From NCBI GenBank assembly GCA_018267475.1, contig JAFDYI010000008.1, positions 1-42,788 on the forward strand: 42,788 bases of DNA. Direction: 5' to 3'. The notes beneath the pieces were generated by a model. That model made no database searches. It was not told the DNA's origin and worked only from the letters and a program-made list of their open reading frames with translations. This document shows positions 26,516-37,333 of this stretch, one piece after another. Within the stretch, counting starts at the first letter, position 1. Each line of letters starts with the position of its first letter. The position numbers and the translations under genes were made by a program. The DNA is from Bacteroidota bacterium. GTDB lineage: Bacteria > Bacteroidota > Bacteroidia > B-17B0 > Aurantibacillaceae.

Positions 26516-28759
26516 ATGAAAAAAATACTATTAAGCGCAGCCCTTTTAATGACCTGCCTATTACAAAGTCAAGTGCAAAACCCTTGTTTTTCATCGCCAA
26601 CAAATTACGTAACGGGAGGTTACCCTAGAGGAATATGCGCTACTGATTTTAATAACGACGGACACCCTGATATAGCGGTAGTTAATTCTGCTCTCAATAG
26701 CATATCTGTTTTATTAGGCTCGGCTACGGGCACCCTTTCGGCTGCTGCAAATTATGGAGTTGGAACTAACCCTCAAGGGATATGCACCGCCGACTTTAAC
26801 AGCGATGGGCATCCGGATTTGGCAGTAACCAATACTACGGGCACCGTTACAGGGGTATCTGTTTTATTGGGCTCGGCTACGGGCACTATTTCCTCTTCAG
26901 CAAATTATGCTATAGGAACCAGTCCTATAGAAATATGTTCGGCCGATTTTAATGGAGACGGCCACCCCGATGTGGCAGTAACAAATCAAGGTGCTGCTAA
27001 TCTTTCTATTTTTTTAGGCTCGGCTACAGGTGCCCTTTCTGCAGCAACAAATTACTCCTTAGCCCTTGCTCCTTATAGTGTAGAATCAACTGATTTTAAT
27101 AACGATGGGCACCTCGATATAGTAACAAGTAATTACAACAACAGCAGCATATCTGTTTTATTAGGCTCGGCTACCGGTACCCTTTCGGCCGCAACAAACT
27201 ATTCGGTAGGGGCTAGCCCTTCGTTTGTATGTACTGCTGATTTTAATGGAGACGGGCACCCGGATGTAGCTTCTAGCAATGGAGGTAGCAATACCGTATC
27301 TGTTTTACTAGGCTCGGCTACTGGTACGCTCTCGCCAGCAATGAACTATAACATTGGGATAGGTCCTCAAAGAATCTGTTCTGCTGATTTTAATAATGAT
27401 GGACATCTTGATGTAGCCCTTACTGCTAGCAATACCGTTTCTTTTTTGTTAGGATCGGCTACTGGCGCCCTTTCCCCATCTACAAATTACACTATAGGAA
27501 ACGGCCCTTACGGTATCTGCTCTGCTGATTTTAATGGCGATGGTTATATAGATGTAGCAGTAGGTCGCAACAATATAACCCAAACAGCAGTTTTCTTAAG
27601 CAGCCCTTCTCCCTCTGTAGCAGTAAGTGTTATGCCGGTTACTCCTTTGTGTGCAGGCAGTACAGCCACCTTGGTTGCTATCGGCGCAACTACTTATACT
27701 TGGAGCACCGGCGCCACGGCCAGCAATACTACGGCCAGCCCTAGCGTTACCACCACCTACAGCGTAACAGGCACCAATACCGTAGGCTGCACCAATACAG
27801 CCACGACCAGCATTGTTGTAAATGCATACGATGTTATACACGGGCAAGTAGATACCAGCGGCACGCTTATTACACACAGCGCTTGGGTTTATTTATACCA
27901 ACACCTTAGCTCAAACATCCACTTAGCTGCTGTAGATTCCATGCAAATACAAGCTAATGGTGCCTATAGCTTTAGCGTTGCCACACCGGGAAACTATTTT
28001 ATAGGCGTAGTACCCGATACTACAGTCTATCATCGAGCTGCTACCACCTACTACAACAGCACCCACCCTGTCTATCTTTGGGATAGTGCCCAGTTTGTAA
28101 GCATAGGCGGCTGCAACAACAATACTACCTATATTGCCATAAGTCTGATACAAACCCCTGCCGTAAACCCCTTGGCTACAGGAATTATTAGCGGCAACGT
28201 GCAGTCTGATGGTACTTATATAGGGCACCGCATGGCGCAAGGAGGCAACAACAGCGTGATGGGGGTACCCCTAAGAGGAATAGGCGTGAGTTTAGGTAAA
28301 GTGCCGGGAGGAGGCTGCGCAGCACGCACAGCAACCGATGCCTCGGGCAACTATGCCTTCTCGCATGTGGAGGTAGGCAACTATATTGTGTATGTGGACT
28401 TACCCAACTATAAAAGAGACAGCAGCTACCACGTAAGCATCAGCGCTACCAGCTCAGTAAGTGCCAACAACAACTATTTGGTGGACTCTACTTCTATATA
28501 CACCACGCATGCAACAGGCATTAAACAATTTGCAAGCGGCAGCCATAACGTGTGGATATACCCCAACCCGGCAGGCAGCCAACTGCATATACAAAACAGC
28601 GCCGCTTTAGGAAGCATTAGCGTTTACAACGCTTTAGGGCAAATGGTAGAGGCAATACAAAGCAAAGAAAACACAACAACACTGGATGTAAGCAGCTACG
28701 CACCGGGTTTATACACCGTTTTGCTATCAAGCGGGTATAGTACTTTTGTAAAAGAGTAA
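26516..28759 (+). CDS. Secreted seven-bladed FG-GAP/VCBS propeller protein with T9SS type A tail
   Basis: The 747-residue protein begins with a signal peptide (MKKILLSAALLMTCLLQSQ). Seven tandem repeats of about 49 residues follow (residues 37 to about 375). Each has the calcium-type loop DFNxDGHxD and a VSVLLGSATGTLS strand pair, so a closed seven-bladed integrin-like propeller is likely. Next come an Ig/PKD-like domain (CAGSTATLVAIGATTYTWST), two beta domains with CarboxypepD_reg character, and the type A sorting tail (VWIYPNPAGSQLHI, VYNALGQMV, APGLYTVLL). I start at the ATG at 26516. A TTG 16 codons upstream lies inside the -7 box and cannot be the start. The propeller probably binds a carbohydrate or protein ligand, but this is unproven. 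Confidence 0.87.
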   Translation: MKKILLSAALLMTCLLQSQVQNPCFSSPTNYVTGGYPRGICATDFNNDGHPDIAVVNSALNSISVLLGSATGTLSAAANYGVGTNPQGICTADFNSDGHPDLAVTNTTGTVTGVSVLLGSATGTISSSANYAIGTSPIEICSADFNGDGHPDVAVTNQGAANLSIFLGSATGALSAATNYSLALAPYSVESTDFNNDGHLDIVTSNYNNSSISVLLGSATGTLSAATNYSVGASPSFVCTADFNGDGHPDVASSNGGSNTVSVLLGSATGTLSPAMNYNIGIGPQRICSADFNNDGHLDVALTASNTVSFLLGSATGALSPSTNYTIGNGPYGICSADFNGDGYIDVAVGRNNITQTAVFLSSPSPSVAVSVMPVTPLCAGSTATLVAIGATTYTWSTGATASNTTASPSVTTTYSVTGTNTVGCTNTATTSIVVNAYDVIHGQVDTSGTLITHSAWVYLYQHLSSNIHLAAVDSMQIQANGAYSFSVATPGNYFIGVVPDTTVYHRAATTYYNSTHPVYLWDSAQFVSIGGCNNNTTYIAISLIQTPAVNPLATGIISGNVQSDGTYIGHRMAQGGNNSVMGVPLRGIGVSLGKVPGGGCAARTATDASGNYAFSHVEVGNYIVYVDLPNYKRDSSYHVSISATSSVSANNNYLVDSTSIYTTHATGIKQFASGSHNVWIYPNPAGSQLHIQNSAALGSISVYNALGQMVEAIQSKENTTTLDVSSYAPGLYTVLLSSGYSTFVKE
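26624..27610 (+). repeat. Seven tandem FG-GAP blade repeats (about 147 bp each)
   Basis: The blade-encoding units repeat at DNA level, with the near-constant core TTAGGCTCGGCTAC and the GATTTTAA(C/T) calcium-loop codons. The repeats are similar enough to have arisen by recent duplication and to allow unequal recombination. Confidence 0.75.
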
Positions 28760-34565: not shown

Positions 34566-35423
34566 ATGCAGCAAGAACAAGAGCACTGGGATTTAGTTAT
34601 TAAACCTAAAAATAAATGGTACGATGTGGATTTGGCTGCTATATGGCATTACCGCGACTTACTCATGCTGCTGGTGCGCCGCGATTTTGTGGCTGTATAT
34701 AAACAAACCATTTTAGGGCCGCTTTGGTTTTTTATACAACCCATTTTTACCTCGCTTACCTTTACCCTTATTTTTGGCGGCATAGCCAAGATAAGTACAG
34801 ACAGCATGCCCCCCATCTTATTTTATATGGCCGGCGTAACGCTGTGGCGCTATTTTTCTGACTGCTTAAACAACACCTCAAACACCTTTATTGCCAATGC
34901 AGGAGTGTTTGGCAAAGTATATTTTCCAAGGCTTATTATGCCGCTATCGGTGTTGGTATCCAACCTTATTAAATTAGGCATACAACTGCTTATTTTTCTA
35001 ATTATATGGTTGTACTATTTAGTTACAGGCACACAGGTACAGCCGCAGTGGTACTTGCTTTTGGTATTGCCTCTATTGATATTGATGATGGCAGGCTTGG
35101 GCTTAGGCTTTGGTATTTTAATTTCTTCATTAACTACCAAGTACCGCGATTTAAGTTTTTTAATAGGCTTTGGGGTGCAACTGCTCATGTACGGAAGCTC
35201 GGTTATTATACCGGTATCCAGCATCACCAATGCACATTTAAAAATGGCCATGCTGCTCAACCCGCTTACCTCCATCATAGAAGCCTTTAAATATATTTTT
35301 TTAGGGAGCGGCTTTTTTAGCGCCTACTGGCTTATATACGATTTTGCTTTTATGATGATCGTACTGGCCGTAGCCGTGCTTATGTTCAATAAGGTAGAAA
35401 AAACATTTATGGATACGGTTTAG
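34566..35423 (+). CDS. wzm: ABC-2 type polysaccharide export permease (Wzm)
   Basis: Wzm forms the membrane channel that exports lipid-linked O-polysaccharide. The 285-residue protein has an N-terminal amphipathic stretch (LLMLLVRRDFVAVYKQTILG), six hydrophobic segments (IFTSLTFTLIFGGIA, ILFYMAGVTLWRYF, LGIQLLIFLIIWLYYLV, LLLVLPLLILMMAGLGLGFG, FLIGFGVQLLMYGSSVIIP, FAFMMIVLAVAVLMF) and the PLTSIIEAFKYIFLG loop of the family. The protein looks complete and ends EKTFMDTV. Its partner wzt normally follows directly, but here a 641-nt four-helix-bundle element begins at the first base after the stop codon. Confidence 0.93.
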   Translation: MQQEQEHWDLVIKPKNKWYDVDLAAIWHYRDLLMLLVRRDFVAVYKQTILGPLWFFIQPIFTSLTFTLIFGGIAKISTDSMPPILFYMAGVTLWRYFSDCLNNTSNTFIANAGVFGKVYFPRLIMPLSVLVSNLIKLGIQLLIFLIIWLYYLVTGTQVQPQWYLLLVLPLLILMMAGLGLGFGILISSLTTKYRDLSFLIGFGVQLLMYGSSVIIPVSSITNAHLKMAMLLNPLTSIIEAFKYIFLGSGFFSAYWLIYDFAFMMIVLAVAVLMFNKVEKTFMDTV

Positions 35424-35579
35424 GCTGGAGTTGGGCTGAGGGTGAGATTGAGACTGAGGGTGAGATTGAGACGGAGGGTGAGGGTGAGGTTGAGGATGAG
35501 GTTGAGGTTAAGGTTGAGGTTAAGGTTGAGACTGAGATTGAGACGGAGGGGGAGATTGGAGTTAAAATTGAGAATAAGA
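35424..35579 (+). repeat. Left hexamer array, 26 units of TTGAGG type
   Basis: Twenty-six consecutive hexamers run without any break in phase from the base after the wzm stop to the base before the ATG at 35580. Common units are TTGAGG, TTGAGA, TTAAGG, GTGAGG, CTGAGG and CGGAGG. The two ends are the most degenerate. In one frame the array encodes alternating Leu and Arg (or Val-Arg) with no stop codon. Confidence 0.9.
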
Positions 35580-35963
35580 ATGTACAAAGATTTTATAGAA
35601 ACAAGCTTTTGGAAAGGCGCCATGAAAATTGCCGAAATGGTTTTTGTATTGACTAACGAATTACCAAGAAAAGAAGATTATGGATTGACCTCTCAGCTAA
35701 GACGAGCATCGGTTAGTATTTCAGCCAACATTGCCGAAGCCTTTGGGAGAAGCACCGCCCCCGATAAAAATAAATTTTACGATTATGCAAGAGGCTCGGC
35801 ATTTGAAACAAAAAGTTTATTATTGTATGGAATGTCGGTTAACTATTTTAATGAAACAGAAACAAAAAACGTAATTGAGCTTTTGGAACAAACTGTTTAC
35901 GAAATTAATAAAGTAAAAGTAACCTTAAAAAAACAATCTAAATATAAACCTTCTCAACCTTAA
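35580..35963 (+). CDS. Four-helix-bundle protein (S23/IVS-encoded family)
   Basis: The 127-residue protein starts MYKDFIETSFWKGAMKIAEM and shows the hallmark of the 23S-rRNA-intervening-sequence (S23) family: YGLTSQLRRASVSISANIAE (around 53-72), then GSAFETKSLLLYG and an amphipathic last helix (VIELLEQTVYEINKVKVTL). Family members are small, basic, form pentamers, and occur in rRNA intervening sequences and as Avd in diversity-generating retroelements. Most have no known function. I choose the ATG at 35580. The frame stays open upstream only because the hexamer array lacks stops there, which would give a Leu-Arg repeat of 46 residues. The stop TAA is supplied by the right array. Confidence 0.88.
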   Translation: MYKDFIETSFWKGAMKIAEMVFVLTNELPRKEDYGLTSQLRRASVSISANIAEAFGRSTAPDKNKFYDYARGSAFETKSLLLYGMSVNYFNETETKNVIELLEQTVYEINKVKVTLKKQSKYKPSQP

Positions 35964-36064
35964 CCTTAACCTCAATCTTAACCTCAACCTCACTCTAAAC
36001 CTTAACCTCACTCTAAACCTCAACCTTAACCTCACTCTCAACCTTAACCTCAACCTCAACCTCA
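35955..36064 (+). repeat. Right hexamer array, 18 units of YAACCT type
   Basis: Hexamers CAACCT, TAACCT, CACTCT, AAACCT and CAATCT follow one another in phase from the last codons of the four-helix-bundle gene to CA just before the wzt ATG. Their reverse complement (AGGTTG, AGGTTA, AGAGTG) is the unit of the left array, so the two arrays are inverted with respect to each other. Confidence 0.9.
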
Positions 36065-37333
36065 ATGACCGTAATAAAAGTAGAAAATTTAGGCAAGCAG
36101 TATCACTTGGGGCAGGTGGGCACAGGCACCATATCGCACGACCTAAACCGCTGGTGGCACCGTGTGCGGGGTAAAGAAGACCCCTACCTGAAAATAGGCG
36201 ACACCAACGACCGCACCACCAAAGGAAACAGCGATATTGTATGGGCGCTAAAAGACATTAATTTTGAAGTAAAACAGGGCGAAGTGCTGGGTATTATTGG
36301 GCGCAACGGCGCTGGCAAATCCACCTTACTAAAAATACTATCGCGTGTTACCGGCCCTACTGTGGGCGATGTAAAAGTAAAAGGCCGCATTGCCAGCCTG
36401 CTGGAGGTGGGTACCGGTTTCCACCCCGACTTATCGGGTAGAGAAAACATCTTTTTGAACGGAGCCATACTGGGTATGAGCAAGCAAGAAATAAAAAATA
36501 AGTTTGACGAGATAGTTGATTTTGCCGGTGTAGAGCGATATATAGATACCCCCGTAAAGCGCTACAGCAGCGGCATGTACGTGCGCTTGGCTTTTGCCGT
36601 AGCCGCACACCTAGAGCCCGAAATTTTAATTGTGGACGAGGTGCTGGCCGTGGGTGATGCCGAGTTTCAAAAAAAATGCCTGGGTAAAATGAAAGACGTA
36701 AGCGGACAAGGCAGAACCGTTTTATTTGTAAGCCATAATATGCCTTCTATAAAAGCGCTTTGCACAAGAGGCCTTTATTTAGAAAAGGGAGGGGTTACCT
36801 TTCTTGGGGATATCAACCAAACTATAGCAAAGTACTTTGAAATTAAAGCTGTTTTTGAAAAAAAAGGCATCGTTCCTGAAAGTTATGAAAGATATAACAC
36901 CGGGCAAGCAAAAATAAAAAGCGTTCAACTAGTTGACGAAAACGACATGGCTACGAGCGAGGTTTTGTATAGAAGCAAAATAAAATTTAAAATAAAAATA
37001 GATGTATTAGAAAGAATAAACGATGCCATAGTAGATATAAAAATAGTATCAAAAGATGGAGTTGTAATTACGCACACTATGAATATAGACCAAGATGACA
37101 AACCCTATAGCCTCGATGTTGGGATACACGATTTTGAAGTTGATTTACACAATTCTTTTCACCCCGATTATTACAACACAACGGTAGGTATTCACTACTC
37201 TATCGGAGCCACTATTGATTACCTGGAACACATATATGATTTTCAGATATTAAACATTGGGCAAGAAAGCGATTATACCGTTAGTTGGAAACATGGATAC
37301 TTAAAATTAGATAGCAAATGGCAGAAAGTATAA
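36065..37333 (+). CDS. wzt: Polysaccharide ABC exporter ATP-binding protein with Wzt C-terminal domain
   Basis: Wzt powers export through Wzm. The 422-residue protein has Walker A GIIGRNGAGKST (around 75-86), the polysaccharide-exporter signature YSSGMYVRLAFAVAA, Walker B ILIVDEVLAVGDAEFQ and the switch SHNM. Residues about 265-420 form the Wzt_C beta-sandwich (YNTGQAKIKSVQLVD, KIKFKIKIDVLE, HDFEVDLHNSF), which in E. coli O8/O9a reads the terminal modification of the glycan. Base composition drops sharply between the two parts. A hand count gives 32 G+C in 36301-36360 against 10 in 36961-37020. The specificity domain has probably been exchanged together with the genes downstream. Its last 16 nt overlap the aminotransferase gene. 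Confidence 0.93.
   Translation: MTVIKVENLGKQYHLGQVGTGTISHDLNRWWHRVRGKEDPYLKIGDTNDRTTKGNSDIVWALKDINFEVKQGEVLGIIGRNGAGKSTLLKILSRVTGPTVGDVKVKGRIASLLEVGTGFHPDLSGRENIFLNGAILGMSKQEIKNKFDEIVDFAGVERYIDTPVKRYSSGMYVRLAFAVAAHLEPEILIVDEVLAVGDAEFQKKCLGKMKDVSGQGRTVLFVSHNMPSIKALCTRGLYLEKGGVTFLGDINQTIAKYFEIKAVFEKKGIVPESYERYNTGQAKIKSVQLVDENDMATSEVLYRSKIKFKIKIDVLERINDAIVDIKIVSKDGVVITHTMNIDQDDKPYSLDVGIHDFEVDLHNSFHPDYYNTTVGIHYSIGATIDYLEHIYDFQILNIGQESDYTVSWKHGYLKLDSKWQKV

Follow-up and report, generated by a model that had tools for sequence, protein, structure and literature searches.

Foldback (FB) transposons of Drosophila carry long inverted terminal repeats built of short tandem subrepeats, and REPIN/RAYT systems comprise few protein genes, RAYT being a tyrosine transposase, together with many gene-less short inverted repeats per genome. 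Dispersed heptamer repeats occur in cyanobacteria as STRR. Further dispersed heptamers are described, in the accessible text of the respective reports, as GGGAATC arrays in Xanthomonas, with 70 inverted pairs in X. campestris (PMC4692102), and as TAACTGA arrays in Beggiatoaceae (PMC4679880); the same portions of these two papers hold no mention matching S23 or four helix. Descriptions of short intergenic tandem repeats (6-9 nt) in bacteria have so far named no partner protein. In the 23S rRNA IVS, for instance that of Coxiella burnetii, an inverted-repeat element carries a gene for an S23p protein (PF05635) in its loop; according to the accessible portion of its description, the Coxiella IVS has inverted termini cut by RNase III and heptamers upstream of the gene (PMC4990558). 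PF05635 proteins are widespread and their structures have been solved since 2006, their function being so far unassigned. As far as the accessible sections of the sources go, the family resembles Avd (PMC10053308), is present in rRNA insertions of CPR bacteria (PMC11270868) and has 18 members in cas loci (PMC3936711).

The window analysed here, a stretch of 42,788 nt from a Bacteroidota genome, contains a member of this family within an insert between two genes of a polysaccharide export operon, laid out as follows:

34566..35423, + strand: wzm, permease of an ABC-2 type polysaccharide exporter, upstream host gene (PF01061, E 3.2e-17)
35424..36064, + strand: whole inserted element, 641 nt from the wzm stop to the wzt start, composed of left hexamer arm, four-helix-bundle gene and right hexamer arm
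35424..35579, + strand: left arm, 26 in-phase purine-rich hexamers, consensus TTGAGG/TTAAGG
35580..35963, + strand: gene of the four-helix-bundle protein, 127 aa (PF05635 23S_rRNA_IVP, TIGR02436)
35953..36064, + strand: right arm, 18.7 in-phase pyrimidine-rich hexamers, CTCAAC/CTTAAC
36065..37333, + strand: wzt, ATP-binding subunit with Wzt_C domain, downstream host gene (PF00005, PF14524)

The initial annotation had described 26 hexamers in perfect phase from a stop codon to a start codon, and this holds: the first base of the left array follows the wzm TAG, the last precedes the ATG at 35580, and the 156 nt between are free of indels. AG occupies unit positions 4-5 in 22 of the 26 units, against at most one unit in any other phase, and lag-6 identity reaches 0.70, compared with a mean of 0.33 (sd 0.036, maximum 0.46) in 5,000 shuffles and a peak of 0.46 elsewhere in the 42.8-kb window. 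This array has an inverted partner on the far side of the gene. The unit of the right arm is the reverse complement of the left-arm unit, both arrays being in phase; the first units on the right hold the last codons and the stop codon of the four-helix-bundle gene, and the wzt ATG stands immediately behind the last. In a computed fold, the RNA of the insert forms one long hairpin with the gene in its loop (-212 kcal/mol, z = -13.6), while an Rfam search returned a single match, far under its gathering score and outside the element. A four-unit hexamer pattern matched the window's genome three times, always within the wzm-wzt element, which disposed of the idea that hexamers occur throughout this genome. 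Elsewhere in the window, a 763-aa ORF contains at 26703-26986 a tandem repeat of 153 bp (1.9 copies with 76% match), which is probably a repeated protein domain.

Compared with the 23S rRNA IVS, the element has a protein of the same family, inverted terminal repeats forming a stem around the S23p gene, and short tandem repeats upstream of that gene; it differs in lying between two protein genes of an operon and not in rRNA, and in having long tandem hexamer arrays as arms, whose mismatches give no hint of selection on the RNA. Like FB transposons, it has inverted termini composed of tandem subrepeats and is present at some orthologous sites and absent from others (Geomonas and wzm-wzt junctions, below), but the present element is bacterial and tiny, encodes a four-helix bundle without a known nuclease, and has a unit length that tracks the protein branch. 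The occurrence, within single genomes, of few protein genes beside numerous short inverted repeats that lack a gene recalls REPIN/RAYT, whereas the window's family has no known catalytic domain and its repeats are tandem arrays. The dispersed heptamers (STRR, GGGAATC and TAACTGA) are likewise intergenic tandem units, mostly between co-directional genes and in Xanthomonas also paired in inverse orientation, with a unit of 7 nt in place of the 6 nt found here. Avd of diversity-generating retroelements (4dwl, 8ub7) has the same fold (TM about 0.72-0.77 to the AF2 model); it acts together with a reverse transcriptase and a template repeat, whereas the genes adjacent to the window gene are wzm and wzt, with no reverse transcriptase nearby. 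The only RVT_1 match in the window's genome, one reverse transcriptase, is on contig C4 and the window on C36, and a connection of the Avd fold and reverse transcriptase to movement of the element is only suggestive.

The window protein matches PF05635 at E 3.9e-29 (101.4 bits, curated cut-off 33.8) and TIGR02436 at E 9.1e-27 (93.4 bits, curated cut-off 24). Its AF2 model consists of four helices (pLDDT 93.3) and is nearest to Xcc0516 (2gsc, TM 0.82-0.87), followed by BT_0352 (2rld) and Avd (4dwl). Xcc0516, the closest solved relative, is a homopentameric ring of four-helix bundles according to the accessible part of PMC4990558, the ring being known from the relative and hypothetical for this protein. 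PF05635 matches occur in 71 of 100 related genomes. A profile of the window's branch (A1), run against 395 Bacteroidota genomes, yielded seven matches, that of the window among them, with scores of 169-190 bits and none above 122 bits beyond these, a gap that sets the branch sharply apart from common PF05635 members. The window's genome has a second, distant member (32% identity; G000:C33:219212-219553, sampled as L002 and L058), with two in-frame TAA codons within the matched stretch; no flanking period-6 array was detected there. Viral spread of the element was considered and rejected, as the viral_contigs collection yielded no relative of the window protein.

A scan of genome_contigs with the window protein gave 53 loci. 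In the high-scoring class, which was defined by BLAST score ('hex') and is cruder than a tree branch, the best flank period was 6 in 40 of 44 loci, from Bacteroidota, Nitrospirae, WOR-3, KSB1, Cloacimonadota, Planctomycetota, Geobacterales and others. Insertion sites, with gene names read by eye from the translated ends and not taken from tool annotations, include wzm-wzt (L059, L061, L063, L066), hisH-hisF (L060), cysD-cysN (L062) and pulC-gspD (L068, L076, L079). Flanks were scored for periods 4-11 against dinucleotide shuffles and, by this measure, nearly all sampled family genes carry periodic flanks: z was at least 4 in 107 of 119 family loci and at least 6 in 89, after removal of two duplicates (L193, L112) and two broken loci (L120, L139). 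Control genes from the same loci reached these thresholds in 34 and 13 of 117 cases, perhaps due in part to other arrays close by. The period called was that of Tandem Repeats Finder in 241 of 262 arrays, and where the two flanks were called independently at z of at least 3, they agreed in 74 of 85 loci, with 32.7 expected.

Period 7 is the commonest across the family, with 6 in the window's branch and 8 or 9 in others. The distribution of these lengths was followed on a tree of 113 proteins (L083, L091, L086, L090, L084 and L044 left out), where period labels required 13 changes, against a mean of 44.8 for shuffled labels and with none of 200 shuffles as low; the tree rests on few columns, has many open forks and includes near-copies. 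Period 6 is found in 35 of the 36 proteins of the window's branch, the exception being L085 with period 7, and one sub-branch of six proteins has period 8. As a prediction test, 60 further loci were fetched afterwards and assigned the period of the nearest protein, which proved right in 48 of the 54 loci with z of at least 4, including all 12 with period 8, compared with 40 for a constant guess of 7. In five of the six misses, 8 or 9 had been predicted and 7 was observed. Around the period-9 group the rule holds less strictly: L225 and L299 (the latter read by eye) have period 7, yet their nearest protein is L054, with period 9. Period 7 was also seen in four new loci nearest to L056, with period 8. 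Unit lengths differed between sampled genes in 10 of the 22 genomes with at least two such genes, so the host genome is not the cause; the notion that arrays are a trait of the genome and not of the element was rejected, as one genome holds different unit lengths beside different branches.

In the sequences sampled, unit length is thus a property of the protein branch. We consider both the element and this general rule well supported, and as far as our literature search goes the rule is undescribed; within the portion of the open-access literature covered, no paper was found linking the PF05635 family to tandem arrays outside rRNA. Selection on unit length, one of two origins suggested for the array in the initial annotation, gains support from this, since unit length tracks the branches of the protein even between phyla. 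That repeat length is inherited along with the protein branch joins two puzzles, the function of PF05635 and the orphan repeats, and makes both testable. Candidate determinants of unit length are residues specific to a branch, such as D33, Y67 and Y83, which were present in every period-6 row compared and in 0-6% of period-7 rows. K63, H80 and T77 of the branch consensus are further residues specific to the branch.

The two arms of one locus tend to share one unit, with units differing between loci. A locus's own left unit and its reverse-complemented own right unit matched with at most one mismatch in 19 of 30 period-6 loci (30% with partners from other loci), 33 of 55 period-7 loci (6%) and 6 of 12 period-8 loci (5%). 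Purines were more frequent in the flank preceding the gene than in the one following it, in 38 of 42, 49 of 60 and 11 of 14 loci, respectively. Selected RNA pairing should leave more G-U than A-C mismatches on the coding strand, and no such excess was observed among the 149 loci passing the score cut, with 249 wobble-type against 261 anti-wobble mismatches (composition-expected share 0.49). Given the locus-specific shared unit and the lack of G-U bias, the arms look matched at the DNA level, which limits a role of the RNA hairpin but leaves some room for one, and the hairpin as the selected object was discarded for want of a signal in this count.

Regarding change in length, each arm of L208 is exactly one unit of 6 nt longer or shorter than its counterpart in L209, the most similar orthologous element, supporting whole-unit slippage in the one close pair compared. 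The expectation that indels come in multiples of the unit is borne out by this pair and by the 63 of 72 period-6 arrays from Tandem Repeats Finder that are indel-free, but not throughout, as out-of-phase indels occur in some arrays. In the window the right array supplies the stop codon of the gene, but this failed as a rule, the stop context recurring in only 12 of 42 period-6 genes and 21 of 135 others. In L061, L064, L071 and L115, arms are nested, with purine and pyrimidine arrays both on one side of the gene, which looks like the insertion of a gene-less hairpin into or beside an arm. In L078, L080, L090, L296 and L297, the outermost unit, read by eye, has CAGG on the left and CCTG on the right, with GAGG or AAGG in the inner units; these ends are possibly a terminal recognition motif.

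Filled and empty sites were compared at two junctions. Among 29 other wzm loci, wzt followed 2-30 nt behind wzm in 20 and 59-230 nt behind in three; two held 0.9-1.3 kb of other sequence, and four had no wzt in the stretch examined. The 230-nt spacer (L164, in G009) is hexamer-free and carries an apparent short coding fragment, a different filler. Across 19 Geomonas genomes, with junction classes assigned by eye, the pulC-gspD junction held the full element in five (L195, L200, L207, L208, L209), right-array remnants only in two (L211, L212), short leftovers in five (L196, L197, L201, L202, L210), other spacers of 76-110 nt in three (L203, L205, L206) and array-free gaps of 18-41 nt in four (L198, L199, L204, L213). 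Empty orthologous junctions are free of arrays, which shows that the arrays are part of the element. On the gspD tree, the full, remnant and empty states are interspersed, which points to gain, loss or both within Geomonas; the tree fits either direction, and repeated loss rather than gain could account for the pattern. By eye, no target-site duplication was identified at either the wzm-wzt or the Geomonas pulC-gspD junctions.

Arrays are also dispersed without a family gene in some genomes, as judged from pattern matches. The four-unit hexamer pattern matched 143 times in G495, 260 in G496 and 187 in G497 (controls 0), and elsewhere 30 times in G491, 19 in G064, 16 in G492, 11 in G311, 5 in G489 and once each in G493, G494 and G501, the reversed control pattern giving none except 7 in G491, 3 in G492 and 1 in G493. 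A heptamer pattern matched 179 times in G100, 110 in G447 and 51 in G319, with 1-5 matches in the seven other genomes and 0-2 for controls. Twenty regions around hexamer matches encoded no recognisable relative of the window protein; most had an array on one side only, and complete intergenic mini hairpins were found at L297:895-1000 and L296:890-970. Among the 100 related genomes, at least three hexamer matches occurred in three, namely G000, the window's own (3), G064 (19) and G051 (112). A gene of the period-6 branch was present in G000 and G064, five of the other 98 genomes having one or two matches; a search of G051 for such a gene found none. The association of dispersed hexamers with a period-6-branch gene is accordingly good, not exclusive. 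At about 900-1090 of L300 (G051:C1), a C/T hexamer array directly follows the apparent first codons of wzm, as if it had truncated that gene.

From the element and its unit-length correlation, we infer that 35424-36064 is probably a mobile element, foldback- or IVS-like in kind, and that its protein probably contacts the repeats at a fixed spacing. The protein would touch the repeats once per unit, so that contact spacing would set the unit length while the letters of the unit drift, and a ruler-type protein most simply accounts for a constant length within a branch under such drift. A precedent for a ruler on RNA is the TRAP ring, with its binding to spaced NAG triplets; here, given the lack of G-U bias in the arms, binding would probably concern DNA. 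Such binding may let the element, together with gene-less copies in trans, persist or move in the manner of a foldback element, with expression from the host operon. Of the 108 loci whose flanks were sufficient, 90 have the family gene pointing the same way as the genes on either side (27 of 36 with period 6, 50 of 58 with period 7, 13 of 14 with period 8), a count based on ORFs in which some antisense assignments are doubtful in G+C-rich genomes; this fits reliance on the host operon transcript or orientation-specific insertion.

Co-orientation also fits an RNA-level element like the 23S rRNA IVS, with arms kept for folding of the transcript and RNase III cutting the hairpin out of the operon mRNA, thereby freeing or destroying the loop gene. 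The shared family, the strength of the computed hairpin and the accessible account of the Coxiella IVS, with its S23p, RNase III-cut termini and upstream heptamers (PMC4990558), also speak for it; the absent G-U excess does not, and RNA folding alone explains neither a branch-specific unit length nor single-sided dispersed arrays, which leaves this explanation unlikely. Rather less probable is a regulator that binds its own left array in RNA, like TRAP, and controls its own or the operon's expression, the right arm acting as anti-structure. AG repeated at fixed spacing, the purine-richer upstream flank and the nested arms near the start at some loci (L061, L071) are what such a regulator would lead one to expect, but units are locus-specific and free of G-U bias, some genomes have arrays far from any family gene, and the host operons, by eye, have no functional link.

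Slippage followed by point decay, the second origin suggested in the initial annotation, survives in part: whole-unit slippage is seen between L208 and L209, but by itself the process accounts neither for a branch-specific length nor for matched arms. A neutral microsatellite, in which hexamers arise by replication slippage and decay by substitution with length and arms irrelevant, is for that reason a poor candidate, even with those one-unit indels and with out-of-phase indels being few in Tandem Repeats Finder arrays; the inverted arms match, unit length tracks the protein across phyla and within genomes, and the window's genome contains no further match to the hexamer pattern. Translation of the array as a basic Leu-Arg stretch in front of the four-helix-bundle protein, also raised at the outset, can practically be dismissed. 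The gene's frame is indeed open across the left array, as had been noted, reading AGVGLRVRLRLRV..., and a GTG start in that frame is possible at 35442; however, two of the three frames are open, because the TTGAGG/TTAAGG repeat itself gives stops in one frame only, and among 39 period-6 loci (L083, L091, L086 and L142 left out) just 12 have the gene's frame open over at least 60 nt upstream, marking the Leu-Arg reading as a by-product of the unit. Read-through as a general feature was rejected on these grounds and because arrays of period 7 and 8 cannot keep one frame.

The heritable match of protein branch and unit length would also explain why family genes lie inside unrelated operons, cas loci included. 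A broader proposal, offered tentatively, is that PF05635 proteins may be molecular rulers, each branch recognising and maintaining, through slippage and selection, one length of 6, 7, 8 or 9 nt. In these proteins the dispersed hairpins of hexa- and heptanucleotide repeats in bacterial genomes, perhaps including those of cyanobacteria and Xanthomonas, would have the partners, so far missing, that mobilise or maintain them, as a transposon-like class without a recognisable transposase.

Two plasmid loci in the collection place the gene among cas genes and suggest that the PF05635 members reported in cas loci are hitch-hiking elements and not CRISPR parts. In a Picosynechococcus plasmid (L148), a four-helix-bundle gene with period-8 flanks lies at 1492-1848 between cas10 and cmr3, and in a Pseudanabaena plasmid (L149), one with period-7 flanks lies at 1498-1857 between cas6 and cas4.
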